64,000 nt of DNA. Source: Endozoicomonas sp. OPT23 (GTDB lineage: Bacteria > Pseudomonadota > Gammaproteobacteria > Pseudomonadales > Endozoicomonadaceae). The stretch lies in assembly GCF_009653635.1 (NCBI RefSeq), contig NZ_PPFD01000003.1, forward strand, positions 310,001-374,000, given 5' to 3'. Below the pieces are notes generated by a model, which saw only the letters and a list, made by a program, of their open reading frames with translations, was not told the DNA's origin and searched no databases. The stretch's first letter is position 1, and the number at the start of each line of letters is the position of its first letter. Shown here in pieces: positions 1,417 through 62,335 of this stretch. Both the position numbers and the translations under genes were made by a program.

Positions 1417-1504
1417 CTCGTTCTACCGAGAGGCTGTTTGAGAAATCTCTGAACAGAAAGAACCCTACATAAAACAGCAAGGTTCTTTCACCTTAACATT
1501 TAAC

Positions 1505-1578
1505 TGTGTAGCCACACGTAATCAAATATTAGATTGTCATTTCACCGCCTGTGGTGAGGCAATGACATATGAGTTCAT
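1505..1578 (-). repeat. Dispersed hairpin-tail repeat, copy A
   Basis: Read on the reverse strand, this copy has a stem GTCATT/AATGAC (1561-1566 with 1536-1541) enclosing a TCACC/GGTGA inner stem, then a tail with AATATTTGATTACGTGTG and a terminal imperfect GTGTG...ACACA hairpin at 1505-1518. It begins just beyond the stop of cstA and its tail points toward the methyltransferase gene. It belongs to the family whose best copy is at 51180-51252. Confidence 0.7.
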
Positions 1579-1585
1579 ATATCTT

Positions 1586-3019
1586 TTACACCATTTCATT
1601 GTCGCTTTCAGGTTCTGCAGAAGACGCCCAGAGGGCAAAGGCAACGATAGAAGACAAACCAAGAACAATACCAACAGGCCAACCAAGGTCAGACGACAGA
1701 CGAAGACCTTCTGGTGCCATCATGATGTAAGTAGAACAAACCGCTGTCATAAAACCTGCTGGCAAGAGTGCCACCCAATAGTTTCTGTTTTGACGAACCA
1801 TGTAGACAGCCGCAGTCCACAAAACAATGGTGGCCAGTGCCTGATTGGAAAAAGCAAAGTAGCGCCAGATGACCGAAAAATCGACCAGTGTTAACAGGTA
1901 TCCGGCTGCAAACACAGGCACTGCCAGCATCAATCGCCGAGCCATACTGTTTTGACTGATTTCAAACATATCCGCGAAAATAAGACGCAGACTTCTGAAA
2001 GCGGTATCGCCTGATGTGATTGGGCAGGCAATCACACCAAGAATTGCCAGCATGCCACCCACGGTTCCCATCAAACCTGTGGCAATCTCATTCACCACCA
2101 GTGATGGACCACCCTGATCAATAACGGCAGAGAGGCCTTTGATACCTTCCGGGAAGAAAGCCATTGCGGCTGCAGCCCAGATCAGGGTCACTACACCTTC
2201 AGCCACCATCGCTCCATAAAAGACTCTTTTGCCATAACCTTCACAGGGAATGCAGCGCGCCATTAAAGGAGACTGTGTTGCATGAAAGCCACTGATGGCT
2301 CCGCAGGCAATAGTTATGCAAAGCATTGGCCAGGTCGGCAGACCTTTGGGGTGGTCAACAACAGTGCCAATTTCGGGAATCGGTAAGCCTTTAAAAACCA
2401 GCATACTGCCAATACCAAAGGCCATAAACAGCAGCGCCAGAGCAAACAAAGGGTAAATACGGGCAATCAGTTTATCGATGGGAAGAATAGTGGCTATAAA
2501 GTAGTAGGCCAGAATCACTGCCAGCCAGAAGCTCTTGGTTGCCAGAAGACCGGTAAAGCCCAGGTTACTCAGTAAAGAAGCTGGCCCGATCATAAAGACA
2601 GTGCCGACCAGCAATAGCAGAACCACTGACAACAATCGCATAAATTGACAGACTTTAGGCCCAAGGTAGTAACCCACTATTTCAGGAATACTCTGACCTG
2701 AGTGCCTGACAGACATCATGCCCGAGAAGAAATCGTGAACTGCTCCGGCAAATATGCACCCTAGTACTATCCAGACAAACGCCATAGGGCCATACAGTGC
2801 CCCGAGAATCGCACCAAAAATTGGGCCCAGCCCGGCAATGTTTAAAAACTGAATAAGGAAAATCTTGTACCAGGGCAGAGGAACGAAATCGATACCATCA
2901 GTCAGTTCATGGGCAGGCGTTTGGCGTTGCTGATCGATCCCGAAACAACGTTCAACGATCGTACCGTAAACCAGATACCCCACAATGAGCATGGCAAGTG
3001 CCAGTAAAAAGCTATTCAT
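1586..3019 (-). CDS. cstA: CstA-family carbon starvation carrier, short form
   Basis: The 477-residue polytopic protein matches the CstA family, whose characterised members import pyruvate and have been linked to peptide use during carbon limitation. The N-terminal helix is followed by a short basic loop and then by the conserved stretch WYKIFLIQFLNIAGLGPIFGAILGALYGP. Many glycine-rich helices follow. E. coli CstA is about 700 residues; this is the shorter class, ending after about twelve predicted helices and lacking the long C-terminal extension. ATG at 3019 has AGG about ten bases upstream. It is divergent from the AGCS symporter gene at 3474, so both may be controlled from the same 454-bp gap. 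Family assignment is secure; the substrate is inferred. Confidence 0.9.
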   Translation of the reverse strand: MNSFLLALAMLIVGYLVYGTIVERCFGIDQQRQTPAHELTDGIDFVPLPWYKIFLIQFLNIAGLGPIFGAILGALYGPMAFVWIVLGCIFAGAVHDFFSGMMSVRHSGQSIPEIVGYYLGPKVCQFMRLLSVVLLLLVGTVFMIGPASLLSNLGFTGLLATKSFWLAVILAYYFIATILPIDKLIARIYPLFALALLFMAFGIGSMLVFKGLPIPEIGTVVDHPKGLPTWPMLCITIACGAISGFHATQSPLMARCIPCEGYGKRVFYGAMVAEGVVTLIWAAAAMAFFPEGIKGLSAVIDQGGPSLVVNEIATGLMGTVGGMLAILGVIACPITSGDTAFRSLRLIFADMFEISQNSMARRLMLAVPVFAAGYLLTLVDFSVIWRYFAFSNQALATIVLWTAAVYMVRQNRNYWVALLPAGFMTAVCSTYIMMAPEGLRLSSDLGWPVGIVLGLSSIVAFALWASSAEPESDNEMV

Positions 3020-3473
3020 AACTACAACCTGTTGTCATAGAGCATGGGGTTAGATGATGACCTGTAAACCCGCTCTTCAGAGAAATCCTGCCTTTCCTTT
3101 CCTGACAGCTGTTCATCAGCTGCTGTTCTGCCACGTTCCTGTAACCAGATTTTTGTCTCGATTCATTTCTGCACTTCAGTCATCACTTCTCGTCGCTGAG
3201 AATCACTCACTGGCGGCAGGATCGAATCTAATATTTATGCTTCTTCCTTGCTATTTATTCAGATTTAAGACTTCAGCATAGTCACAAAGTTCAAAGGTAT
3301 TTATAAGAAAAAATTATTACCTAACTTGTATCGCTCTTTTTCAGCCCATTCGTTCAAATTTAATCATTACTATTTCGACTCAGCTCATTCAGGTAAGTTA
3401 GAAAAGTTAATAAGAAAGCTATCTTTAAGAGCGGCTCTGCTAAGCTTTCACTATCTCCATTCTGGAACTCCCT
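3020..3473. other. Intergenic region between divergent cstA and AGCS symporter genes
   Basis: This 454-bp gap must hold the promoters of both flanking genes. The half next to the symporter is AT-rich. A 75-codon forward frame starting at 3054 has no ribosome binding site or recognisable product and is not called. I looked for a glycine riboswitch because these symporters are known targets, and for a CRP site because E. coli cstA is CRP-controlled, and recognised neither. Confidence 0.6.
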
Positions 3474-4967
3474 ATGAGCAATCTGATTGACTTGATGAGC
3501 CAAATTTTGTGGGAGTACATTCTGATTTATCTTTTGCTGGGCGCTGGCATTTACTTCTCATTAAGAAGTCGCCTGGTTCAGTTTCGTTACTTTTTTCACG
3601 CCTGGAAAATCATGTTTACCCGTCGTGCAAAAAACGACAACAGTATTTCATCCTTTCAGGCTCTCTGCACAAGTCTCGCTGCCCATGTCGGAACAGGTAA
3701 CCTGGCCGGTGTCGCCATTGCTATTTATATAGGCGGCCCCGGTGCTGTTTTCTGGATGTGGGTGGTTGCTGTGCTGGGTATGGCATCAAGCTTTATCGAA
3801 AACACGCTGGCACAACTCTATAAAACCAATAACAACGATGGGTCATTCAGGGGCGGGCCGGCTTATTACATTGAGAAAGCGCTGGGCTTTCGCTGGCTGG
3901 GCCTGATTTTCTCCAGTCTTCTATTAATTGCCTTCGGCTTTGCTTTTAACTCGGTTCATGCAAACTCGGTTGCAGCCTCTCTTTCGGGCAGCCTTCAAGT
4001 TAGCCAGCAGGAACTGGGTATTGTACTGGCCATCATTACATCATTGATTGTCTTCAGAGGCATTCACACCATCACCCACTTTGCTGAAAAAGTAGTGCCC
4101 GTTATGGCACTGGCCTATCTGGCAATTGCTTTGATCGTCGTTGCTGCACGTTTTGAGGAACTGCCAGCGGTCATCGCTCTGATTTTCAATCATGCTTTCG
4201 GACTTGAGCAGGCCGTCGGCGGTGGTCTTGGTTACACCATTGCCCAGGCAATGATTCAGGGTATCAAGCGAGGCCTGTTTTCCAACGAAGCAGGGATGGG
4301 CAGTGGTCCTAATGCCGCTGCAACGGCTACTCCCTGGCCTCCTCACCCTGCGGCTCAGGGCATCGTTTCCATGATCAGTGTCTTTATCGACACGATCGTT
4401 ATCTGTACTGCAACCGCAGCCATTATCCTGCTGTCAGGACAGCTTGAAAGCGGTGCTGATCTTAATGGTATTCAGCTCACTCAGGCAGCACTGGCGGGTG
4501 TAACCGGTGTATGGGGAGAGTGGTTTATCATGGCGGCTGTTTTCTTCTTTGGACTGACCTCCATTGTCGCCAACTATTACTATGGCGAATCCAACCTGTT
4601 GTTTATGAAGCAGAGCAAATCACTGTTACTTGCCTACCGTTGCGCAGTGGTTCTTATGGTGTATCTGGGAGCCACCAGCAGTATGGAAAGTGTCTGGCTG
4701 GTCGCTGATTTTGCCATGGGTGCCATGGCTCTGATCAACCTTGTAGTGATCGTGCTATTGTCCGGACCCGTCTTCGACGTTTTGAAAGATTACGACCAGC
4801 AACGAGCCAACGGACAGACGCCTACTTTCTGTCGTAAGAACTTCCCTTTTCTGAACAAAACCATGGACTCTGATGTCTGGATTCAAACCTCTGAAGCAGA
4901 CGACAATAATAAAGATGATGATAACTGCTCGCCGGTTCAGGATCTTCCTGAATTAAGACAGTCATAG
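3474..4967 (+). CDS. Sodium:alanine/glycine symporter, AGCS family, copy 1
   Basis: The 497-residue integral membrane protein belongs to the AGCS (alanine or glycine:cation symporter) family, which couples uptake of alanine or glycine to Na+. Family signatures include FQALCTSLAAHVGTGNLAGVAIAI near residue 62, GGPGAVFWMWVVAVLGMASSFIENTLAQLYK, FRGGPAYYIEKALG, and GIKRGLFSNEAGMGSGPNAAA around residue 265. The C-terminal tail after about residue 445 is hydrophilic and acidic. ATG at 3474 has GGA nine bases upstream. A second, closely similar gene follows in tandem 302 bp downstream. Substrate choice between alanine, glycine and related amino acids cannot be read from the sequence. Confidence 0.92.
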   Translation: MSNLIDLMSQILWEYILIYLLLGAGIYFSLRSRLVQFRYFFHAWKIMFTRRAKNDNSISSFQALCTSLAAHVGTGNLAGVAIAIYIGGPGAVFWMWVVAVLGMASSFIENTLAQLYKTNNNDGSFRGGPAYYIEKALGFRWLGLIFSSLLLIAFGFAFNSVHANSVAASLSGSLQVSQQELGIVLAIITSLIVFRGIHTITHFAEKVVPVMALAYLAIALIVVAARFEELPAVIALIFNHAFGLEQAVGGGLGYTIAQAMIQGIKRGLFSNEAGMGSGPNAAATATPWPPHPAAQGIVSMISVFIDTIVICTATAAIILLSGQLESGADLNGIQLTQAALAGVTGVWGEWFIMAAVFFFGLTSIVANYYYGESNLLFMKQSKSLLLAYRCAVVLMVYLGATSSMESVWLVADFAMGAMALINLVVIVLLSGPVFDVLKDYDQQRANGQTPTFCRKNFPFLNKTMDSDVWIQTSEADDNNKDDDNCSPVQDLPELRQS

Positions 4968-5269
4968 GTACTTTTCATAGCTGTCACATAAGACCGTATG
5001 TTTGTTTTCTATTTGTAAACGCTCCAATAGCAGGCACTAGATAGTTTTACCCATGATATCCGTAAATATCGCAACCCGGGCAACTCAAAAAATGATCAAT
5101 AAGAACACCTTCCACCCTTTCCCCACCTAGCATTACTTCCTGTTTCTCTGCATAAAACCCCAATTTCAGCAAATAAGTATCTACACCTGCGCAACCTCGT
5201 TTATTCACCAATATGATGAAATCGCATTTCCCCCGAAACTTGCCCCATATTAATAATTCAGGAATCTTC
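4968..5269. other. Gap between tandem AGCS genes, with an unproven reverse-strand ORF
   Basis: No repeat, riboswitch or terminator is obvious in this gap. A reverse-strand frame runs through it from an ATG at 5271 to a stop at 5047-5049 (74 codons). Its peptide is fairly protein-like and ends CPGCDIYGYHG, but it has no good ribosome binding site and its start codon overlaps that of the downstream symporter on the other strand. I do not call it as a gene. Confidence 0.4.
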
Positions 5270-6742
5270 ATGATCGAATTCATCTCTGCAGCCAATGGTC
5301 TTCTCTGGGGAAGCGTCCTGATTTATCTCCTGCTCGGAGTGGGCATTTTCTTCACCGTACGCACTCGTTTTGTTCAGTTCCGCCGCTTTGGCATGGCCGT
5401 AAAAACCATGATGGGCAGCCGCAGTCGAACCTGCAAAACACATATCTCTCCTTTCCAGGCATTTTGCACCAGCCTTGCCGCACGCATCGGCACCGGTAAC
5501 ATGGCCGGTGTTGCCGTTGCTATCTATCTCGGTGGCCCGGGCGCAGTATTCTGGATGTGGATGATTGCAGTACTGGGTATGGCGACCAGCCTTGCAGAAA
5601 ACGTTCTCGCGCAGATTTATAAAACCAATAACGGCGATGGCACCTTCCGTGGTGGTCCGGCTTACTACATTGAAAAAGCTTTGGGTCAACGCTGGCTCGG
5701 TATCACTTTCTCTGTTTCCCTGATCATTGCTTTTGGTCTGGCGTTCAACAGTGTTCAGTCCAACTCCATTGCAGCCGCTTTCAGCGCCTATGACATAGCG
5801 CCTGAATACATCGGTGCCGCTCTGGCCTTGATCAGTGGCGTGATTATCTTTGGCGGTATTCGCTCTATTTCCCGTGTTGCAGAAATGATCGTGCCTGTTA
5901 TGGCACTGGGTTATTTGGCTGTAGCGATTGTTGTGGTTCTGATGAACGCTTCCGAACTGCCTGCCGTATTCAGCCTGATTTTCAAGAGTGCTTTTGGTCT
6001 TGAAACAGCTGCGGGCGGTGGTGTGGGTTACATGGTGTCTCAAGCCATGATGAACGGCATCAAACGTGGCCTTTTCTCCAACGAAGCTGGCATGGGCAGC
6101 GCACCCAATGCTGCCGCTGCGGCTCATTCTACACACCCGGTTAATCAGGGTCTGCTGGGGATGCTCGGCGTATTTCTGGACACTATCGTTGTGTGTACTG
6201 CCACTGCAGCCATTATTCTGGTTTCCGGCATGCTGGAACCAGGCAGCGGTCTGACCGGTATTGCTCTGACTCAGCAGGCGCTGTCCAGTCAGGTAGGCGA
6301 ATGGGGTTCGCAACTGGTGGCCTTTGCCATTCTGCTGTTTGCTTTTACTTCCATCATCGCTAACTACTACTACGGCGAATCCAACCTGCGCTTTATCAAG
6401 GACAGCAAGCTGCTGATCATGGTTTATCGTGTCGTTGTTATCGCAATGGTGTTCATCGGTGCTTCCAGTGAACTGCAGTCAGTGTGGAACTTTGCTGACC
6501 TGTCCATGGGCGTCATGGCTCTGATCAACCTGGTGGCTATCATGCTGCTGTCCGGTATCGTGATTCAGGTACTGAAAGACTACGATGAACAGGTATCTGC
6601 AGGCATGGAACCGGTATTCAACCGTAAGAAATTCCCATTCCTGGATAAAACCATGGATAAGGATGTGTGGCTGGAAAATGCTTGTGAGAAGGCAGCCAAG
6701 TCTTCTGCTAAAAAAGCGGAAGCTACTCTCGCTACTGACTAA
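5270..6742 (+). CDS. Sodium:alanine/glycine symporter, AGCS family, copy 2
   Basis: This 490-residue AGCS symporter is a paralogue of the preceding gene. The two align without major gaps through the whole membrane domain (for example TKTNN.DG.FRGGPAYYIEKALG.RWLG, GIKRGLFSNEAGMGS.PNAAA and FTSI.ANYYYGESNL), which points to a tandem duplication. The C-terminal tail ends in an Ala/Lys-rich stretch instead of the acidic tail of copy 1. The start is ATG 5270, because AGGA lies six bases upstream and the protein then begins like copy 1; an earlier in-frame ATG at 5213 lacks support. Differences between the pair may reflect different substrates or expression conditions. Confidence 0.92.
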   Translation: MIEFISAANGLLWGSVLIYLLLGVGIFFTVRTRFVQFRRFGMAVKTMMGSRSRTCKTHISPFQAFCTSLAARIGTGNMAGVAVAIYLGGPGAVFWMWMIAVLGMATSLAENVLAQIYKTNNGDGTFRGGPAYYIEKALGQRWLGITFSVSLIIAFGLAFNSVQSNSIAAAFSAYDIAPEYIGAALALISGVIIFGGIRSISRVAEMIVPVMALGYLAVAIVVVLMNASELPAVFSLIFKSAFGLETAAGGGVGYMVSQAMMNGIKRGLFSNEAGMGSAPNAAAAAHSTHPVNQGLLGMLGVFLDTIVVCTATAAIILVSGMLEPGSGLTGIALTQQALSSQVGEWGSQLVAFAILLFAFTSIIANYYYGESNLRFIKDSKLLIMVYRVVVIAMVFIGASSELQSVWNFADLSMGVMALINLVAIMLLSGIVIQVLKDYDEQVSAGMEPVFNRKKFPFLDKTMDKDVWLENACEKAAKSSAKKAEATLATD

Positions 6743-7401: not shown

Positions 7402-7499
7402 ATCTTGCAGACTCTCATCACCTGATCACTCCTGATTTATCGGCCATCGGCTGCAGAGAATAATAATCGGGGGTTTGAAGTTGAGAGCTGGACGTACAG

Positions 7500-7570
7500 A
7501 TTCATAAGACTTTTGCCCGCAACAGGCGGGAAAGCTTGATTTATTATTCGATTACGTGTGTCTGCACACA
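7500..7570 (+). repeat. Dispersed hairpin-tail repeat, copy B
   Basis: The copy starts ATTCATAAG, has a stem CTTTTGCCCGC / GCGGGAAAG around a short loop, then the tail TTATTATTCGATTAC, and ends in the small hairpin GTGTG-TCTG-CACAC (7556-7569). It lies in the divergent gap before xseB, ending 35 bases before the xseB start. Confidence 0.85.
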
Positions 7571-7604
7571 TGTCTCGAACTACAGAACACGGGTTAAGAA
7601 AAGC

Positions 7605-7850: not shown

Positions 7851-8750
7851 ATGATCCTGCAGGAATACATGAACACCTGCCGTACGCGGGTGGACGAGCA
7901 GCTTAAGCTGGTATTACCGGAATCCAGCATTGTCAGCCCGAAGCTGGCTGAAGCAATGACTTACTCGGTGTTTAATGGTGGCAAGCGGGTTCGCCCACTG
8001 CTGGTTTATGCTGCAAACAAAGCGCTTGGTGGTCAAGCTCATCATGCTGACCCGGCAGCCTGTGCGGTAGAGCTTATCCACGCTTATTCTCTGGTCCATG
8101 ACGACCTTCCAGCTATGGACGATGATGACCTGCGCCGCGGTAAGCCAACCTGCCATAAGGCGTTTGATGAGGCTACCGCCATTCTGGCGGGCGACGCGCT
8201 TCAGACATTAGCCTTTGAAGCCCTGAGCACTCCGTACCACTTTCCAGAGGCATTGCTTTCGGATACTGCCCGCCTGGCACTTTTTCGAGAGCTGACTTCT
8301 GCATCCGGCCATGCCGGTATGTGCGGTGGGCAATCCATGGATCTCAACTCCGTTGGCCAGGCTCTTAATCAGCAACAACTTCAGCTGATGCACAACCATA
8401 AAACCGGTGCGCTTATTCGAGCCAGTGTCATCATGGGCGCTCTGTCCACAGACAAGGTCACTGATGAGGAGCTGGATACCCTGACCACCTATGCCAATGC
8501 CATAGGTTTGGCGTTTCAGGTTCAGGACGATATTCTCGATGTCACGGCAGACACCGAGACACTGGGCAAGCAGCAGGGTGCCGATGATGCTCTCGACAAG
8601 CCAACCTACGTTTCTCTGATGGGGCTTGAAGCCGCTCAGCACTTTGCAGAAGAACTCTGCCAGGAAGCTCTCACTGCCTTGTCTTCATTTGATGAGCAGG
8701 CCGCACCTCTGCGCCAACTGGCTGAATACATCGTTCATCGGTCTCATTGA
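7851..8750 (+). CDS. ispA: Farnesyl diphosphate synthase (geranyltranstransferase)
   Basis: IspA condenses isopentenyl diphosphate with dimethylallyl and geranyl diphosphate to make farnesyl diphosphate in the cytoplasm. The 299-residue protein has GGKRVRPLLVY near residue 43, the first aspartate-rich motif in HDDLPAMDDDDLRRGKPT (about residues 83-100) and the second in FQVQDDILDVTADTE (about 222-236). Length and motifs are normal for the family. It follows xseB by three bases and precedes dxs, which feeds the same isoprenoid pathway. A repeat copy and a leader of about 300 bp separate it from dxs. Confidence 0.96.
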   Translation: MILQEYMNTCRTRVDEQLKLVLPESSIVSPKLAEAMTYSVFNGGKRVRPLLVYAANKALGGQAHHADPAACAVELIHAYSLVHDDLPAMDDDDLRRGKPTCHKAFDEATAILAGDALQTLAFEALSTPYHFPEALLSDTARLALFRELTSASGHAGMCGGQSMDLNSVGQALNQQQLQLMHNHKTGALIRASVIMGALSTDKVTDEELDTLTTYANAIGLAFQVQDDILDVTADTETLGKQQGADDALDKPTYVSLMGLEAAQHFAEELCQEALTALSSFDEQAAPLRQLAEYIVHRSH

Positions 8751-8757
8751 TACCCAC

Positions 8758-8830
8758 ATTCCTTATATAGCTGTTTGCCGACCACAGTAAGACAAACAGC
8801 TACTTAATATTCGGTTAAGTGCGCTTACAT
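8758..8830 (+). repeat. Dispersed hairpin-tail repeat, copy C (diverged)
   Basis: The stem is AGCTGTTTG (8769-8777) with CAAACAGCT (8793-8801). It is followed by ACTTAATATTCGGTTAAG and a weak terminal hairpin TAAG-TGCG-CTTA. The stem sequence differs from other copies but stays fully paired. It lies directly after the ispA stop. Confidence 0.65.
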
Positions 8831-9010
8831 AGCTGGATGTCCATTTTCTTTCAAAAATGTTAATTGTTCACCGTTCAGGTACAATCTCTGCTGATGAGCT
8901 ATAACCCTCTGACCTGACGTTCTTTTTTATACAGCATCATTCTTCGGGTCAGAGACAATGCGAGTAAATTGCTGAACCCAGCACTTTGAAACGAAGTACC
9001 TTGAATACAG

Positions 9011-34430: not shown

Positions 34431-35024
34431 TCAGGCTGTATCGTAAAGATGCCCAAGCTTCCACACTTTAGTCGTCAGATACTTCTCATTATGAGGATTC
34501 TGACCCGTCTGGTGAGGCTTACGCTCAACCACTTCAATACCCTGACTGGTCAGTGCATCAACTTTTTTGGGGTTGTTAGTCATTAAATAAACCTGTTCAA
34601 CGCCCAGGTGATCCAGCATGGTCTTGCACATATCGTATTTACGCAGATCCGCTTCAAAGCCTAACTCTTCGTTAGCTTCAACGGTATCCAGACCTGTATC
34701 CTGCAACTGGTATGCACGTACCTTATTCAGCAAACCAATACCACGGCCTTCCTGACGCAAATAAAGAATAACACCGCGACCTTCATCGGCGATCTTACGC
34801 ATGGCGGCTTCCAACTGTGGGCCACAATCACAGCGCATACTGAACAGGGCATCCCCTGTCAGGCATTCTGAATGGACTCGGGCTAATACCGGTCCACCCT
34901 GGCTGACATCCCCCATGGTGAGAGCCAGATGCTCCTTGCCGGTGCCACTCTCTTCAAATCCATGCATGATGAACTCACCAAAAGGGGTCGGCAAGCGAGA
35001 CTCTGCAACAAAACTAACAGACAC
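34431..35024 (-). CDS. ribA: GTP cyclohydrolase II
   Basis: RibA opens GTP to 2,5-diamino-6-ribosylamino-4-pyrimidinone 5'-phosphate with release of formate and pyrophosphate, the first step of riboflavin synthesis. The 197-residue product contains the zinc ligands in [24 protein letters not shown], the loop [35 protein letters not shown] and the C-terminal region to [15 protein letters not shown], all standard. GTG 35024 is chosen because GGAG lies six bases upstream. It is separate from the rib operon proper. A copy of the dispersed repeat ends just before its ribosome binding site. It supplies the activity that appears lost in the second domain of the ribB product. Confidence 0.95.
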
Positions 35025-35041
35025 TCACTACTCCTCAATAA

Positions 35042-35100
35042 GTGTGTGGACACACGCAATAGAATATGAAATCAGCCATTCTTCTCATAACGGCCGGTAA
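35042..35100 (-). repeat. Dispersed hairpin-tail repeat, copy D
   Basis: On the reverse strand the stem GCCGTT/AATGGC (35089-35094 with 35075-35080, one wobble) is followed by ATATTCTATTGC and a perfect terminal hairpin GTGTGTCCACACAC (35042-35055). The tail end lies 18 bases before the ribA start codon, so the element is probably part of the ribA leader. Confidence 0.75.
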
Positions 35101-35158
35101 ATTCGCATGTCCGGGTACTTACAGTCTGGTGATGGATTGTATCAGAGCAACCATCAGA

Positions 35159-38793: not shown

Positions 38794-39906
38794 TCAGTCT
38801 TCGCTGTGGATGTATTCAACAATTTCCAGATCAAAGCCGGACAAAGCGCCGAACTTGACCGGAGAACTGAGTAGACGCATTTTACCCACGCCCAGATCAC
38901 GGAGAATCTGTGAACCAGTACCAATGGTCAGATAAGCACCGGACATACCGCTGCTGCCTGACTTGCCCTGGTTATAACGTTCCAGAGCATGGCCCAGATC
39001 CATCTTGCCCTCAGAATTCAGCAACACGGCAACACCGCGCCCTTCTTTGGCAATTTTCTCCAGCGCCTTGTTCATGGACCAGCTGTTGCTTCCCTTTTCA
39101 GGGTGAGCGCCCAGCAGATCGCGGAAAGGTTCCATTGCATGCACTCGGACCATAGTGGGCGAGTTAGGCGTTATGTATCCCTTACTCAGGGCAATATGCG
39201 TGTTGCCACTGATGTAATCACGATAGGCCGTCAGATCAAACTGACCGAAATCCGTATCAATAGTACGGGTTTCAATCTTCTCTATAGTCTTCTCATTGAG
39301 AATGCGATAGTTAATCAGATCAGCAATGGTGCCAATCTTGAGGTCATGCTCTTTGGCAAAGACTTCAAGGTCAGGGCGACGAGCCATGGAACCATCTTCG
39401 TTCATAATTTCGATGATGGCTGCTGCTGGAGCGAGACCTGCCAAACGAGACAAGTCACAACCTGCTTCCGTATGACCGGCACGACTCAAAACACCACCTG
39501 GCTGTGCACGCAGCGGGAAGATGTGTCCTGGCTGAACAATGTCACCTGGACGGGACAGCGGGTCAACCGCGACACGAATCGTTTTGGCACGATCCGCTGC
39601 AGAGATACCTGTTGTCACACCTTCAGCAGCTTCAATGGAAACAGTAAACGGAGTACCAAAACCGGACTCGTTGTCGTCGTTTCCTACCATCGGAGGCAGC
39701 CCCAGAAAATCGCAACGTTCACCGGTCAGGGTGAGGCAAAGCAGGCCACGAGCCTCTCTTGCCATAAAGTTAACGATTTCCGGCGTAATCTTTTCTGCCG
39801 CAACAATAAGGTCGCCCTCATTTTCACGGTCTTCATCATCCATGAGGATAACGGGCTTACCGAGACGAATGTCCTCGATAATCTCTTCGATGGAGTTAAG
39901 CTGCAT
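38794..39906 (-). CDS. ribB: 3,4-dihydroxy-2-butanone 4-phosphate synthase with degenerate GTP cyclohydrolase II domain
   Basis: The first 205 residues are DHBP synthase, which makes the four-carbon unit of riboflavin from ribulose 5-phosphate. Motifs are DDEDRENEGDLIVAAEKITPE, RPGDIVQPGHIFPLRAQPGGVLSRAGHTEAGCDL and IMNEDGSMARRPDL. The second domain (to residue 370) has the GTP cyclohydrolase II fold but lacks its three zinc cysteines: the equivalent stretch reads AMEPFRDLLGAHPEKGSNSWSMNKALEKIA. It is therefore a RibBX-type protein, probably inactive as a cyclohydrolase, with separate RibA at 34431 providing the step. ATG 39906 follows a GGGGG run six to ten bases upstream. No FMN riboswitch is recognised in the upstream gap. 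Confidence 0.92.
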   Translation of the reverse strand: MQLNSIEEIIEDIRLGKPVILMDDEDRENEGDLIVAAEKITPEIVNFMAREARGLLCLTLTGERCDFLGLPPMVGNDDNESGFGTPFTVSIEAAEGVTTGISAADRAKTIRVAVDPLSRPGDIVQPGHIFPLRAQPGGVLSRAGHTEAGCDLSRLAGLAPAAAIIEIMNEDGSMARRPDLEVFAKEHDLKIGTIADLINYRILNEKTIEKIETRTIDTDFGQFDLTAYRDYISGNTHIALSKGYITPNSPTMVRVHAMEPFRDLLGAHPEKGSNSWSMNKALEKIAKEGRGVAVLLNSEGKMDLGHALERYNQGKSGSSGMSGAYLTIGTGSQILRDLGVGKMRLLSSPVKFGALSGFDLEIVEYIHSED

Positions 39907-40030
39907 AGTGCCCCCACTCAATGTTGATGCATCCGGCATGCGAAACCGGCACATTCTACAGTGTTCAACCAGCCTCTGGAAGAACACTGCGGTTTATTCT
40001 GATTTTCTTAGTCAGTGACTATACAGACTT

Positions 40031-40097
40031 ACTCATTCACACGTTATTAGCCTGCCGCAGGCCGAGTAATAACTAATAGAGAAGTCTACACACTCAC
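40031..40097 (+). repeat. Dispersed hairpin-tail repeat, copy J (shortened)
   Basis: GTTATTA-GCCTG (40043-40054) pairs with CAGGC and TAATAAC (40058-40062 and 40067-40073) around CCG, with a four-base bulge. A shortened tail ends GTCTACACAC at 40084-40093, overlapping the ribE stop. The TATTCG part of the tail is missing and the orientation is less certain than in other copies. It fills part of the ribE-ribB gap. Confidence 0.5.
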
Positions 40098-40770: not shown

Positions 40771-40848
40771 TTAAGTGTAAGGACACTTGCAATCGAACAG
40801 TAAGTTCTTTGCCCGCCTTCGCCGGGCAAAGAACTTATGAATTCATAA
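40771..40848 (-). repeat. Dispersed hairpin-tail repeat, copy E
   Basis: AAGTTCTTTGCCCG (40802-40815) and its exact complement (40823-40836) form a 14-bp stem with a seven-base loop. On the reverse strand this is followed by CTGTTCGATTGC and the terminal hairpin AAGTGT-CCTT-ACACTT (40773-40788). Both stems differ in sequence from copy H yet remain fully paired. The element starts at the ribD stop codon and ends 15 bases before the ribE ATG. Confidence 0.85.
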
Positions 40849-41976
40849 ACCGCTGGTCACTGCCTGAGATGGCACGGCAGTTATCTTCCAGTCATTGCCG
40901 ACCGACCTGACCTCTTTAATCGTGAGGCTGACTTTATCAGACATTTGCTCAATAGGCAGGTTTAGCAACGGGCGGGCAGAAGACCCCATCAACACAGGTG
41001 CCATAAAAACAACTAATTCATCAATCAGGTTCTGTTCCAGAAAGGCACCGGCAAGTGTCGCGCCGGTTTCCAGCAGCACTTGATTAATTTCCCGCTGAGC
41101 CAGATGTTCCAGCAGTTGTTCGATATTGATTTTCCCATCATGGGAATCCATCTGCAGCACTTCTGCACCAGCATCTCTGATCATACGAATCTTTCCGTGG
41201 TCTGCATCCACAGCACAGACGATGAGACAGCTGCCGTTACCTGAAATCACTTTTGCAGTAGTCGGCGTCTGAAGATGAGCATCCAGTACCACTCGCAGCG
41301 GCTGGCGTTTTGCTATCTCATCCGCATTGTCCAACCCGAGTTCTGAAGCACGAACAGTCAGGGAAGAATCATCCTGTAAGATCGAACCAACACCGGTAAT
41401 AATGGCGCAACTCTCAGCTCTCATTTGCTGAACCTGACTGCGGGCATCAGGGCCGGTAATCCATTGGGACTTTCCGGAAGCCATGGCCGTTCTGCCATCA
41501 AGGCTCATGGCCAGTTTGGCTCTGACAAAAGGGCGACCGGATTCCATGCGTTTGATAAAACCCGGATTCAGAGCCTTTGCTTCAGCTTCAAGGACTCCGC
41601 TCAGTGTTTCGATTCCGGCTTCATTGAGCATTTTCATACCACGGCCTGAAACAGAAGGGTTCGGGTCTTCCATAGCTGCAACAACGCGGGAGATCTTTGA
41701 TTTTATTAATGCGGAAGCACAGGGAGGCGTTCGGCCAAAATAACTGCAGGGTTCAAGGGTAACGTAGGCGGTTGCGCCTTCTGCTTTGTCTCCTGCCATT
41801 TTCAGGGCATGGACTTCAGCGTGGCCTTCACCGGCACGCTCGTGAAAGCCCTTTCCTACGATCTCGCCATCACGGACAATCACGCAACCGACCCTTGGAT
41901 TGGGCATGGTGGAGTAAAGTCCTTTTCTGGCTAGTCGCAGGGCTTTGGCCATCCATTCATGGTCGTTTGTTGACAC
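40843..41976 (-). CDS. ribD: Bifunctional riboflavin deaminase/reductase RibD
   Basis: RibD carries out the second and third steps of riboflavin synthesis: deamination of the pyrimidinone and NADPH-dependent reduction of its ribosyl chain. The 377-residue product has the zinc deaminase motifs HAEVHAL (about residue 50) and PCSYFGRTPPC (about residue 75) in the first 150 residues, then the reductase domain with RPFVRAKLAMSLDGRTA, WITGPDARSQVQQMRAESCAIITGVGSIL and LETGATLAGAFL. GTG 41976 is used because GGAG lies eight bases upstream. It is the first gene of the reverse-strand operon running to pgpA. Confidence 0.95.
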   Translation of the reverse strand: MSTNDHEWMAKALRLARKGLYSTMPNPRVGCVIVRDGEIVGKGFHERAGEGHAEVHALKMAGDKAEGATAYVTLEPCSYFGRTPPCASALIKSKISRVVAAMEDPNPSVSGRGMKMLNEAGIETLSGVLEAEAKALNPGFIKRMESGRPFVRAKLAMSLDGRTAMASGKSQWITGPDARSQVQQMRAESCAIITGVGSILQDDSSLTVRASELGLDNADEIAKRQPLRVVLDAHLQTPTTAKVISGNGSCLIVCAVDADHGKIRMIRDAGAEVLQMDSHDGKINIEQLLEHLAQREINQVLLETGATLAGAFLEQNLIDELVVFMAPVLMGSSARPLLNLPIEQMSDKVSLTIKEVRSVGNDWKITAVPSQAVTSGL

Positions 41977-43817: not shown

Positions 43818-44312
43818 ATGACTGCTCCCGTTGGAATTATAATGGGCTCGAAAAGCGATTGGCCGACCATGCAACATGCGGCTGATATGCTGGACAATCT
43901 GGGCGTTGCCTACGAAGTGAAAGTCGTTTCCGCTCACCGCACGCCTGACCTGTTATTCGATTACGCCAAGAGCGCACAGAGCCGCGGTATCAAGGTTATT
44001 ATTGCCGGTGCCGGTGGCGCTGCGCATCTGCCTGGCATGGCTGCTTCCCAGACATCTCTTCCTGTTCTCGGTGTTCCCGTAAAAAGCCGCGCACTAAACG
44101 GTCTCGATTCCCTGCTGTCTATTGCTCAAATGCCCGGTGGTGTTGCCGTTGGTACTCTGGCGATTGGTGATGCCGGTGCTAAAAACGCAGGCCTGCTGGC
44201 TGCACAGATTCTGGCCACCAGCGATGATGCTCTGTTGAAACGCGTTGATGAGTTCCGCGCTAACCAGACAGACACTATTCTTGCTGAGCCGGACCCGCGC
44301 ACTGCTGAGTAA
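43818..44312 (+). CDS. purE: N5-carboxyaminoimidazole ribonucleotide mutase
   Basis: PurE (class I) converts N5-CAIR to CAIR in purine synthesis and works with PurK, encoded next. The 164-residue product has the family motifs [50 protein letters not shown] with the substrate-binding loop, and [32 protein letters not shown] 43818 follows the leader hairpin by about 20 bases. A repeat copy lies between this gene and purK. Confidence 0.96.
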
Positions 44313-44325
44313 TCAGACATACGCT

Positions 44326-44403
44326 TTCATAAGCTGTTTGTTTGCCTGCCTGCGGCAGGCGAATAGCAATTTAATATTCGATTGCATGCGTCTACACACT
44401 TAA
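44326..44403 (+). repeat. Dispersed hairpin-tail repeat, copy F
   Basis: It starts TTTCATAAG, has a stem GCCTGCC-TGC-GGCAGGC extended by GCTGTT/AATAGC with an insertion on the left side, then AATTTAATATTCGATTGC and the ending GTCTACACACTTAA. It occupies most of the purE-purK gap, ending 51 bases before the purK ATG. Confidence 0.8.
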
Positions 44404-48399: not shown

Positions 48400-48424
48400 T
48401 TAAGTGTGTAGATACACTCAATAG
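48400..48424 (-). repeat. Dispersed hairpin-tail repeat, copy G (tail only)
   Basis: Only the tail is well preserved: on the reverse strand CTATTGAGTGTATCTACACACTTAA-like sequence with the hairpin AGTGT-ATCTAC-ACACT (48403-48418). The expected main stem would fall in the 3' end of the LysR gene and is not formed. It lies between the LysR and sulfotransferase genes, with the same orientation as both. Confidence 0.5.
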
Positions 48425-50144: not shown

Positions 50145-51167
50145 ATGATAGAAACGCTGACCTTTATTGCTGCTATTGCTGCGGGCTTTGTGGCCCTGTC
50201 CTGGAGTGCTGACCGACTGATTGAGGTCGCTTCCACCCTAGCTTCCCACCTGGGTATGTCCATTCTAACCATTGGCATGACCATTGTTGCCTTTGGTACC
50301 TCAGCTCCCGAACTACTGGTTTCTTCAGTCGCAGCCGTAGACGGTGCCGGCGGTATTGCCATTGGTAATGCGCTTGGTTCCAACATCATCAATATTGGTC
50401 TGGTTCTGGGTATCTGTGGTGTTCTGATACCACTGTCTGTAAGCCGTCGTGTTATTACCAGAGAACTGCCACTGCTGGGGCTGGTGATTGTCTTTGCGCT
50501 GGCACTCATGCTGGACGGTATACTGAGCCAAATGGATGGTTACCTGCTTGCTGTTGCCCTTGTCGGCTATTGCTACTATCTGGCAAAACACTCCGGCGGG
50601 GATGATTCACCAGAAGACGATGTCACTATTCTGAAGATACCCACCAGCCGTGCAGTTGTTGAAGCCCTGTTATTGCTTGCTGTTCTTTTGGGTAGTTCAA
50701 AACTGCTGGTATGGGGTGCCAGTGAACTGGCTCGCTCCTACGGCATCAGTGAAACCATTATTGGTCTGACCGTTATTGCCTTTGGTACCAGCCTGCCTGA
50801 ACTGGCTGCGGTGATGGCCAGTGCTCGTAAGGGTTTATTTGATATGGTGATGGCCACCGTTATTGGTTCCAACATCTTTAACCTGCTGGGTGTTCTGGCA
50901 TTTCCGGGAATTCTAAGTGGCGGTCTGGAACTCGACCCGATGGTGATTCAGAGAGATGGCCTGGTAATGGCAGGTCTTACTGCCCTCTTTGCCTTTTTTG
51001 TAGTCACCAGTATGGGAAGCAACAACTGTTGTACAACAACAGGCAACAGTGCAACCTGTGAAAAAGAGCTGACTTTCTGCAGTAATATTTCCCGGCTCAA
51101 AAGCGCTATTATTCTAGCCTGCTTTGCGGGTTATATGGGTGTGCTGGCGGTGGATGTTTTAGGCTGA
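50145..51167 (+). CDS. Calcium/sodium antiporter (CaCA family, YrbG-like)
   Basis: The 340-residue integral membrane protein has the two inverted alpha-repeats of the cation/Ca2+ exchanger superfamily: TIGMTIVAFGTSAPELLVSSVAAVDGAGGIAIGNALGSNIINIGLVLGI near residue 45 and IIGLTVIAFGTSLPELAAVMASARKGLFDMVMATVIGSNIFNLLGVLA near 205. The acidic loop HSGGDDSPEDD separates the halves. A cysteine-containing loop (NNCCTTTGNSATCEKELTFCSN, seen near residue 285) before the final helix is unusual for the family. A repeat copy follows, then convergent nrdR. Confidence 0.92.
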   Translation: MIETLTFIAAIAAGFVALSWSADRLIEVASTLASHLGMSILTIGMTIVAFGTSAPELLVSSVAAVDGAGGIAIGNALGSNIINIGLVLGICGVLIPLSVSRRVITRELPLLGLVIVFALALMLDGILSQMDGYLLAVALVGYCYYLAKHSGGDDSPEDDVTILKIPTSRAVVEALLLLAVLLGSSKLLVWGASELARSYGISETIIGLTVIAFGTSLPELAAVMASARKGLFDMVMATVIGSNIFNLLGVLAFPGILSGGLELDPMVIQRDGLVMAGLTALFAFFVVTSMGSNNCCTTTGNSATCEKELTFCSNISRLKSAIILACFAGYMGVLAVDVLG

Positions 51168-51179
51168 ATAACATAAGTA

Positions 51180-51252
51180 ATTCATAAGCTATTTGCCCGC
51201 CTGCGGCGGGCAAATAGCAATTAAATATTCGGTTGTGTGTCTACACACGTAA
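51180..51252 (+). repeat. Dispersed hairpin-tail repeat, copy H (best preserved)
   Basis: After ATTCATAA, the arm GCTATTTGCCCGCC (51188-51201) pairs perfectly over 14 bp with 51205-51218 around TGC. The tail AATTAAATATTCGGTT leads to the perfect small hairpin GTGTGT-CT-ACACAC. I use this as the type copy. It lies 12 bp after the antiporter stop, pointing toward the convergent nrdR gene. Confidence 0.9.
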
Positions 51253-60937: not shown

Positions 60938-62242
60938 ATGAGTCGTTCTGACGATCGCTCCAGTAATCTATTTAACGAAGCCCAGAAAGTCATTCCCGGT
61001 GGTGTTAACTCACCCGTACGTGCTTTTAAGGGTGTTGGTGGCAAGCCGGTCTTCTTCAAAAGTGCAGAAGGCGCCTATGTTCAGGACGTTGATGGCAATG
61101 AGCTGATCGACTACGTAGGTTCCTGGGGTCCAATGATCCTAGGGCATAACCATCCTGAAGTGGTTGAAGCTGTTCGTGAACAGGCTTTGCTGGGGATGAG
61201 CTTTGGCGCACCGACGTCTCTGGAAACCGAGCTGGCACTGGAAGTACGTGAATTGTTCCCATCCATGGAACTGTTGCGCATGGTGAGTTCCGGTACCGAA
61301 GCCACCATGAGTGCTATTCGTCTCGCTCGTGGTTTTACCGGTCGTGACAAGATCGTCAAATTTGAAGGTAACTACCACGGTCATTCAGACTCCCTGCTGG
61401 TTAAGGCCGGTTCCGGCGCTCTGACTCTGGGCGTACCCAGCTCTCCCGGCGTTCCTGCTGCGTTGGCTGAAAGCACTATCACTTTGACGTACAACGACAT
61501 CGACTCTGTAAAGCAGGCCTTTGCTGAAATCGGTTCAGACGTCGCCTGTATTATTGTTGAGCCTGTAGCCGGCAATATGAACTGTATTCCCCCGGTTCCC
61601 GGTTTTCTGGAATGCCTGCGTGAAGTGTGCGACGAGCACGGTTCACTGCTGATCTTTGATGAAGTAATGACCGGCTTCCGTGTTTCTCTGGGCGGTGCTC
61701 AGGCGCAGTACAACATCAAGCCTGACCTGACGACTCTGGGTAAAATCATCGGTGGAGGCCTGCCAGTTGGTGCTTTTGGCGGCCGTAAAGATGTTATGGA
61801 GTTCCTGGCGCCGCTGGGGCCGGTTTATCAGGCAGGTACACTGTCCGGTAACCCGCTGGCCATGGCTGCTGGTCTGGCAACCCTGAAGAACCTGTCTCGC
61901 CCTGGTCTGCACGGTGAGCTGACCGAAAAGGTTGCCAAACTGTTGGCTGGTTTCAAACAAAAAGCTGATGAAGCCGGTATTCCTCTACTGACCTCTCAGG
62001 CTGGAGCCATGTATGGTCTGTTCTTTACCAAACAGGAAAGCGTGACTCGTTTTGACCAGGTAATGGAATGCGATGCTGAATTCTATGGCAAGTTCTTCCA
62101 CGCCATGCTGGATGAAAATATCTATATGGCGCCGTCCGCTTTTGAAGCAGGCTTTATTTCCGACGCCCACGGCGACAAGGAAATAGATCAAACCATTGAA
62201 GCAGCTGGTCGTGCATTCCAGAAGCTGCTTTCAGCGTCCTGA
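60938..62242 (+). CDS. hemL: Glutamate-1-semialdehyde 2,1-aminomutase
   Basis: HemL converts glutamate-1-semialdehyde to 5-aminolevulinate in the C5 route of haem synthesis. The 434-residue product has the canonical sequence [32 protein letters not shown]-type loop ([37 protein letters not shown]), [17 protein letters not shown] and the Schiff-base Lys269 in [26 protein letters not shown] lies before ATG 60938. Compare the diverged HemL-like protein at 45677, which lacks the GVNSPVRAF start. Confidence 0.97.
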
Positions 62243-62252
62243 CCAGACACAG

Positions 62253-62335
62253 ACATTCGAATGCCTACGTCGTTTACCCAGCTCCGGCGGGGAAACGACA
62301 ATTAGCTATTCGATGACGTGTGCCTACACACTAAA
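62253..62335 (+). repeat. Dispersed hairpin-tail repeat, copy I
   Basis: GTCGTTT (62269-62275) pairs with AAACGAC (62293-62299), with an inner CCC/GGG, then AATTAGCTATTCGATGAC and the terminal hairpin GTGTG-CCTA-CACAC. The stem sequence is unlike copies E or H, but pairing is kept. It lies between hemL and the following membrane protein gene, ending 20 bases before the latter's ATG. Confidence 0.8.

Follow-up and report, generated by a model that had tools for sequence, protein, structure and literature searches.

The 64-kb window analysed here (the whole stretch of DNA under study, C23:310001-374000) belongs to the genome of Endozoicomonas sp. OPT23, of which 4,936,507 bases (4.94 Mb) are assembled in 30 contigs. 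The window includes a riboflavin gene region with a separate ribA (34431-35024) plus a ribBA-like gene (38794-39987), and two tandem paralogous ORFs (3474-4967 and 5213-6742), which share 72-76% DNA identity in several blocks, recorded as repeat families D1, D3, D5 and D8. Scattered among the genes are copies of a short non-coding repeat, which are listed in Table 1.

Table 1. Copies of the repeat in the window, with their scores against covariance model R1 and the corresponding interval in the sister genome Hp36
Feature	Position	Strand	Support	Site in Hp36
MITE copy	1500..1589	-	R1 52 bits	45 nt in Hp36 vs 168 nt in window between aligned flanks
MITE copy	7480..7573	+	R1 53.3 bits	30 nt in Hp36 vs 104 nt in window between aligned flanks
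Divergent MITE copy after ORF 7851-8750	8746..8836	+	R1 26.5 bits, E 0.0011	inside one continuous gapped alignment with Hp36; least clear junction
MITE copy upstream of ribA, internally shortened	35038..35122	-	R1 55.2 bits	clean, base-perfect empty site
Shortened near-palindromic MITE copy, ribE/ribBA-like gene gap	40015..40097	+ (minus strand matches too)	R1 30 bits, E 1.4e-4	16 nt in Hp36 vs 87 nt in window
MITE copy, ribD-ribE gap, overlapping ribD ORF 3' end	40771..40864	-	R1 59 bits	36 nt in Hp36 vs 101 nt in window
MITE copy, purE/purK-like gene gap	44305..44403	+	R1 81.4 bits	flanks 16 nt apart in Hp36 vs 126 nt in window
Right-end piece GTGTATCTACACACTTAA, weak	48400..48424	-	sequence and repeat family D4	Hp36 does not align
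MITE copy of the original prediction, left end degenerate	51159..51252	+	R1 75.8 bits, E 4.1e-16	54 nt in Hp36 vs 178 nt in window between aligned flanks
Main hairpin of the 51159..51252 copy			GCTATTTGCCCGCC / GGCGGGCAAATAGC
MITE copy at stop codon of ORF 60938-62242, left edge degenerate	62241..62335	+	R1 67.5 bits	tight empty site

Structure, copy number and distribution of the repeat

The original prediction had listed ten copies of a hairpin repeat in the window. Covariance model R1 was built from 25 copies, all outside the window, which a search with the 51180 copy had turned up, and it recovered nine of the ten (E 1.6e-17 to 0.0011). The tenth, at 48400-48424 on the minus strand, gave no R1 match at E<=0.1; it resembles the right end of the repeat alone and may be a remnant of a copy. 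The repeat first reported is thus real, but the coordinates given were short, since conserved sequence extends about 20 nt further left and takes in a left terminal repeat that had been missed.

A full copy is about 94-95 nt long. Among the covariance-model matches in this genome, 147 of 149 measured 82-102 nt and 89 were exactly 95 nt, a length that would appear too short to encode a transposase. Alignment of 30 own-genome matches with added flank gave the layout TAAGTACCCAGACATACGAATTCATAAGC-[stem-loop]-GCAATTTAATATTCGATTACGTGTGTCTACACACTTA. Both ends read TAAGT....AGACAyACG and form imperfect, TA-edged terminal inverted repeats (TIR), in which 1424/2600 cells are Watson-Crick paired. The outer dinucleotide was TA at the left edge of 97 and at the right edge of 110 of the 149 copies, and outside this TA the 148 aligned copies showed no clear base preference. 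As to the first impression that the repeat is none of REP, ERIC or BoxC, Rfam gave no family at gathering score within the 64-kb window, and no match at E<=1 in two loci, L033 and L017, the second of which holds repeat copies.

The repeat is abundant in the genome. A DNA search with the 51180 copy returned 50 rows, in which certain places appear on both strands, and R1 returned at least 151 matches. We used 149 of the 151, all but the last one and the partial opposite-strand match C23:103488-103526; 148 copies were aligned after dropping C23_103391+, which overlaps another copy. A 19-base left-end pattern, allowing up to 3 mismatches, matched 82 places in the genome as against 2 for the reversed pattern, so that the copies are not due to chance. 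Sixty-four of these 82 fall among the R1 matches listed, and therefore we estimate the family at near 190, or some 150-200 copies in this genome. Six of the 18 unlisted left-end matches (L200, L270-L274), together with the window copy at 35038, all matched R1 directly (E 1.6e-13 to 9.6e-4).

Some copies have unusual structures. At C23:103391-103546 (L017, L031) a pair of copies overlaps tail to tail, apparently a nested insertion in which one copy entered at the other's terminal TA. In L272 (C26:528200-531200) the right half of a copy, at about 1340-1500, gives way to sequence starting GGAGCCTGTCGGACTTAGCC, perhaps through the insertion of a further mobile element, and a second, weak covariance-model match lies at 1239-1353 of the same locus. 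A variant of about 62 nt at 1457-1518 of L270 keeps the left end and has lost the main stem.

Outside this genome the family was found almost only in Hp36 ('Oceanospirillales bacterium strain Hp36'), which also came first in a RibD search of named genomes, among the best 80 of 542 matches, followed by Endozoicomonas arenosclerae with 68% RibD identity. Across 57 genomes including its own, at E<=0.001 with strict filters, R1 matched only the Endozoicomonas sp. OPT23 genome and Hp36. Across 37 genomes of the bacterial family, again including its own, at E<=1e-4, there were at least 114 rows in its own genome and 49 in Hp36. The proposed search of related genomes yielded 45 distinct places in Hp36 (50 rows), but in the 35 other genomes of the family nothing beyond one weak match, in G016 (9.4e-5).

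The gene context of the 148 copies was determined with ORFs called by length alone. Eleven copies fell inside ORF calls, several of which are short doubtful ORFs, and the remaining 137 were intergenic, in agreement with the description of a dispersed and mostly intergenic hairpin family. Fifty of the 137 are co-directional with both neighbours, 33 are opposite to them, 32 lie between divergent and 22 between convergent genes. The covariance-model strand can err for near-palindromic copies (C12:331082 was called minus, its left-end pattern being plus), so that these orientation counts contain a few errors; the bias in tandem contexts, 50 against 33, fell short of significance (p 0.078). A neighbouring ORF uses the element's own terminal TAA as its stop codon in 8/72 cases on the left and 15/55 on the right. 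Such shared stops would follow if the element had entered a stop codon at its TA and thereby restored the codon, and ends beginning with TAA suggest how the element tolerates gene edges.

Insertion sites and a likely IS630 partner

Contig SIHQ01000009.1 of Hp36 (L065), with neighbouring C166 stretches (L298, L299), aligns with much of the window, and nine of the ten window copies sit between alignable flanks. Searching these three stretches with R1 at E<=0.1 gave no match at any of the nine sites, though a decayed Hp36 copy could also evade the covariance model. The copies are at non-orthologous sites, with 0/9 alignable window sites holding a detected Hp36 copy; the Hp36 copy at C166:102120-102214 likewise had no counterpart in the aligned stretch of the Endozoicomonas genome. 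At 35038-35122, Hp36 reads ...CTCAATA followed directly by CAGTCTG..., whereas the window reads ...CTCAATA[element]TACAGTCTG..., so the TA target is duplicated; this is the sole clean, base-perfect empty site. The site at 62241-62335 is also tight, as Hp36 matches query positions 1-1305 and 1395-2057 in two blocks only 1 nt apart, its left edge being degenerate in the window. At the other seven of the nine sites the junction is blurred by intergenic divergence.

A linked transposase, proposed as a further check, was found in Hp36 and in a congener (G007), but not in the assembled genome that carries most copies. In that genome there was no DDE_3 match and no homologue of the Hp36 IS630 transposase (30 contigs, between which a gap could hide one), and present-day mobility there is unproved because no transposase of this group was found. 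MITEs do not strictly require a transposase in the same genome. DDE_3 is present in 9/10 genomes of the genus. We screened the ends of 49 IS630 loci, comprising 30 of the 100 DDE_3 matches in the genus and 19 loci from a transposase homologue search, and only L157 of Hp36 (C156) had an inverted end pair at up to 5 mismatches. The element, at L157 877-2023, is 1147 bp long, with ends TAAGTAGCCAGACAACAG and TAAGTACTCAGACAAATG and two overlapping reading frames that join at a run of A; its transposase is assigned to IS630 by NCBIfam NF033545 (1e-37) and Pfam DDE_3 (4e-30). G007 has eight full-length matches to this transposase, with 66% amino acid identity and a 383-aa frame. Rfam on L157 gave two sub-threshold matches, both outside the IS; one of them, at 2811-3315 on the minus strand beside the element, is to the cspA thermoregulator, with 56.9 bits against a gathering score of 78.

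The ends of the repeat resemble those of the IS630 elements at 60-77% over 30 nt. Anchored over 30 nt, the MITE left end matched the IS right end at 23 positions in Hp36 (TAAGTACTCAGACAAATGAAATCATATATTC) and 22 in G007 (TAAGTAGTCATGCATACGAAATCATATATTC), a level reached in 0/200000 shuffles each; as the Hp36 element was chosen by its ends, its match is partly circular, whereas the match with G007 is independent because that element was found by protein and not by its ends, which do not pass the screen at 5 mismatches. At its right end the MITE was about equally like both IS ends, matching the right end at 21/30 positions (p 2.5e-5) and the left at 18/30 (5e-4) in Hp36, and the right and left ends at 20/30 each (3e-5 and 1e-4, respectively) in G007. 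Only the ATCGAATATT block, which lies at equal distance from the tip in the MITE right end and the G007 IS left end, favours the left. The body of the MITE is absent from the IS; therefore the MITE did not come about simply by deletion within the IS copies observed, and shares its ends with the group.

Since none of the nine alignable window insertions was detected in Hp36, one site has a clean TA duplication and the ends match IS630 ends in register, we take the repeat to be a non-autonomous IS630-type MITE. An IS630 transposase would have bound the MITE ends in trans, excised the element and inserted it at other TA sites; the gene for this enzyme may since have been lost from the genome, or may lie outside its assembled part.

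Origin of the paired changes in the stem

The main stem of the repeat varies in sequence and stays paired, as the original prediction had noted. In 25 copies, 33 cells were changed on both sides, where shuffles gave 9.5 and slid structures no more than 4, and in 148 copies 1758/2033 main-stem cells were Watson-Crick paired. We compared the changes with a home-made tree null, for which columns were simulated independently on a FastTree tree in 200 runs. Watson-Crick double changes on the same branch numbered 54, whereas the null averaged 9.5 and never exceeded 21, and the main-stem covariation is thereby confirmed. Pairs 29-32 and 36 (numbered by 5' column; 5/14) reached p 0.005, the lowest obtainable, and pairs 33-35 had p 0.010-0.025. 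Among the inner G+C pairs 37-42, which occur at about the frequency expected of independent columns, pair 40-48 had p 0.035 and the others p >=0.055. Thus, the covariation is real, and lies mainly in the outer half of the main stem. The paired changes also claimed for the small terminal hairpin found hardly any support, alternative Watson-Crick pairs filling 10/720 cells as against 34 G-T and 49 A-C.

Several pairs often changed together. Changes of 2-4 pairs at once were seen in 24/55 copies with a tree of non-stem columns and in 9/35 with a tree of all columns, these trees resting on 58-95 columns and being weak. Such changes fit one-step copying from arm to arm as well as exchange of whole hairpins between copies, two routes which the data do not separate. 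Identity in the inner stem correlated weakly with identity outside the stem (rho 0.15, p 0.07).

The covariation had been taken to suggest that the folded form is selected. Selection on the RNA of the + strand is expected to make G-T mismatches outnumber A-C mismatches beyond the mutational background. In the stem, G-T did exceed A-C (109:72, p 0.007), but the non-stem columns showed an equal strand asymmetry (374:279; Fisher p 0.50, all copies). Leaving out the 11 ORF copies on both sides gave 103:66 in the stem and p 0.43, and terminal branches gave 78:59 in the stem against 211:166 outside it (p 0.92) or, with the all-column tree, 75:50 against 257:188 (p 0.68). Outer stem pairs had G-T over A-C at 35:18 and 31:15, which did not differ significantly from background (p 0.18 and 0.27). 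By gene context, co-directional copies, in which an effect on RNA should peak, matched their own non-stem ratio (45:27 against 155:88, p 0.89), and divergent copies gave p 0.20. Convergent copies were the only one of the four contexts with a stem G-T excess (16:5 against 57:56, p 0.034), and opposite-strand copies tended, near significance, towards A-C (9:16 against 80:65, p 0.086).

Stepwise compensation through wobble pairs is expected to yield double changes that are nearly all transitions. We counted 62/91 or 33/46 transitions among the double changes (terminal branches, two trees), with 26-32% transversions, which is much like the single stem changes (134/199 and 122/190; p 1.0 and 0.39, with p 0.33-1.0 over all comparisons). 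Non-stem columns had a lower share of transitions than the double changes (p 0.018 and 0.064 on terminal branches, 0.015-0.064 over all comparisons), a difference that leans towards stepwise compensation.

A stem maintained by selection on transcribed RNA, for example as an RNase III site or an mRNA-stabilising hairpin, whether or not the repeat is a MITE by origin, would accord with covariation well above the tree null, with the differing G-T:A-C ratios of co-directional and opposite-strand copies (Fisher p 0.034), with the departures from background in the convergent and, nearly, the opposite context, and with the lean of tandem copies to the + strand. RNA of the + orientation also folds far more stably than shuffles (z -3.9 to -7.8, five copies), but so does the DNA (z -3.0 to -7.4, three copies), and the Rfam searches above matched no family. 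Because there is no G-T excess over background, the share of transitions is not raised over that of single changes, the inner pairs hardly covary and the orientation is not significantly biased, the covariation over all copies carries no clear sign of selection on transcribed RNA. The proposed selection of the folded form was not shown, one of the four gene contexts, the convergent, pointing the other way. Transcripts of the element would fold into a stable hairpin with a possible effect on RNA processing, and weak selection at the RNA level is possible; as the force that maintains the stem, we regard RNA selection as unlikely.

We favour pairing at the DNA level, by template switching or hairpin exchange, as the source of the paired changes. 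Template switching would copy one arm of the palindrome onto the other, or copies would exchange entire hairpins, and elements with changed stems would then spread. Taking the evidence together, we consider it very probable that the repeat is a non-autonomous MITE of the IS630 (Tc1/mariner-like) group, mobilised in trans, and that the paired changes of its outer stem arose at the DNA level. A more specific reading, which we put forward tentatively and rate well below the former, is that the family forms a natural genome-wide record of palindrome-templated mutation, in which template switching homogenises the arms and gives a mobile DNA covariation able to pass tests designed for RNA, without RNA selection. 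On this reading paired changes would arise in one step, transversions included, and often in 2-4 pairs at once. Homogenisation of inverted-repeat arms by template switching has been described (PMC8604942). If palindrome-templated mutation were indeed the source, screens based on covariation only would take MITEs for functional RNAs, and families of this kind could be used to gauge the rates of template switching in natural bacteria. The repeat in any case provides a worked case in which covariation, though statistically strong, is not necessarily a sign of RNA function, and two simple tests, the strand asymmetry of mismatches against background and the share of transitions among double changes, could be used as controls elsewhere.

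Comparison with known repeat families

Intergenic hairpins in more than 100 copies would also be expected of a REP/REPIN palindrome moved by a RAYT (Y1 HUH) transposase or of an IS200/IS605 palindrome-associated element, but such an origin is contradicted by the TA duplication and also by the TIRs and the similarity to IS630 ends, and we consider it extremely improbable. TIRs with TA duplication and IS630 end similarity are not known as features of REP sequences. Y1_Tnp (PF01797) had no match in the genome, on which ground a Y1 or IS200-IS605 origin was rejected; 5/14 control genomes did match. Equally far-fetched are intrinsic terminators or attenuators arising gene by gene, for although a G+C-rich hairpin lies near many stop codons and some copies may act as terminators, the whole 94-nt sequence is conserved including both ends, the main stem is followed by AATTTAATATTC without a T run, copies occur in all gene contexts (32/137 divergent), and the tested insertions were undetected in Hp36.

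The family is of a kind already known, and is new by host and, as far as the Rfam and paper searches show, by sequence. Our literature search, which mostly did not extend to subscription papers, found no paper joining Endozoicomonas with MITEs or inverted-repeat transposable elements. The repeat thus adds an apparently undescribed IS630-type MITE, with a likely partner IS, from little-studied marine animal-associated bacteria. Among MITEs, the cyanobacterial Nezha has IS630/ISY100 kinship. By the title of the work on it (cited in PMC10969869), Nezha is an active bacterial MITE, in another host.

Other intergenic repeats share some of these features. The REPINs of Pseudomonas are intergenic mobile hairpins, the arms of which are reported to have common compensatory changes, and they are tied to RAYT transposases (PMC3116915), whereas the Endozoicomonas genome is without a Y1 match. 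ERIC/IRU, by its description, is likewise an intergenic TA-ended MITE (PMC2229807) but is 127 bp long (PMC2759123) with a 7-bp TIR (PMC2229807). The Correia/NEMIS elements of Neisseria are TA-ended MITEs with TIR and hairpin-capable transcripts (PMC2229807, PMC2649163), but they have a 24-bp TIR and forms of 107 and 155 bp; features linked to IHF, promoters and RNase III are described on the Neisseria side, and the passages on these elements show no IS630 partner (PMC2229807).

The closest known kind is RUP of Streptococcus pneumoniae, for which the published description gives 107 bp, 108 copies, TA sites and ends like those of IS630-Spn1, by which its mobilisation has been proposed (PMC2229807). 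By that description RUP and the present repeat are alike in a size of about 100 bp, some 100 copies, an intergenic location, TA ends and insertion, and IS630-like ends, and RUP differs in belonging to another host phylum and in its 9-bp TIR (PMC2229807). The Endozoicomonas repeat is in turn set apart from RUP by a transposase that is not in the same genome and by its strong paired stem changes.
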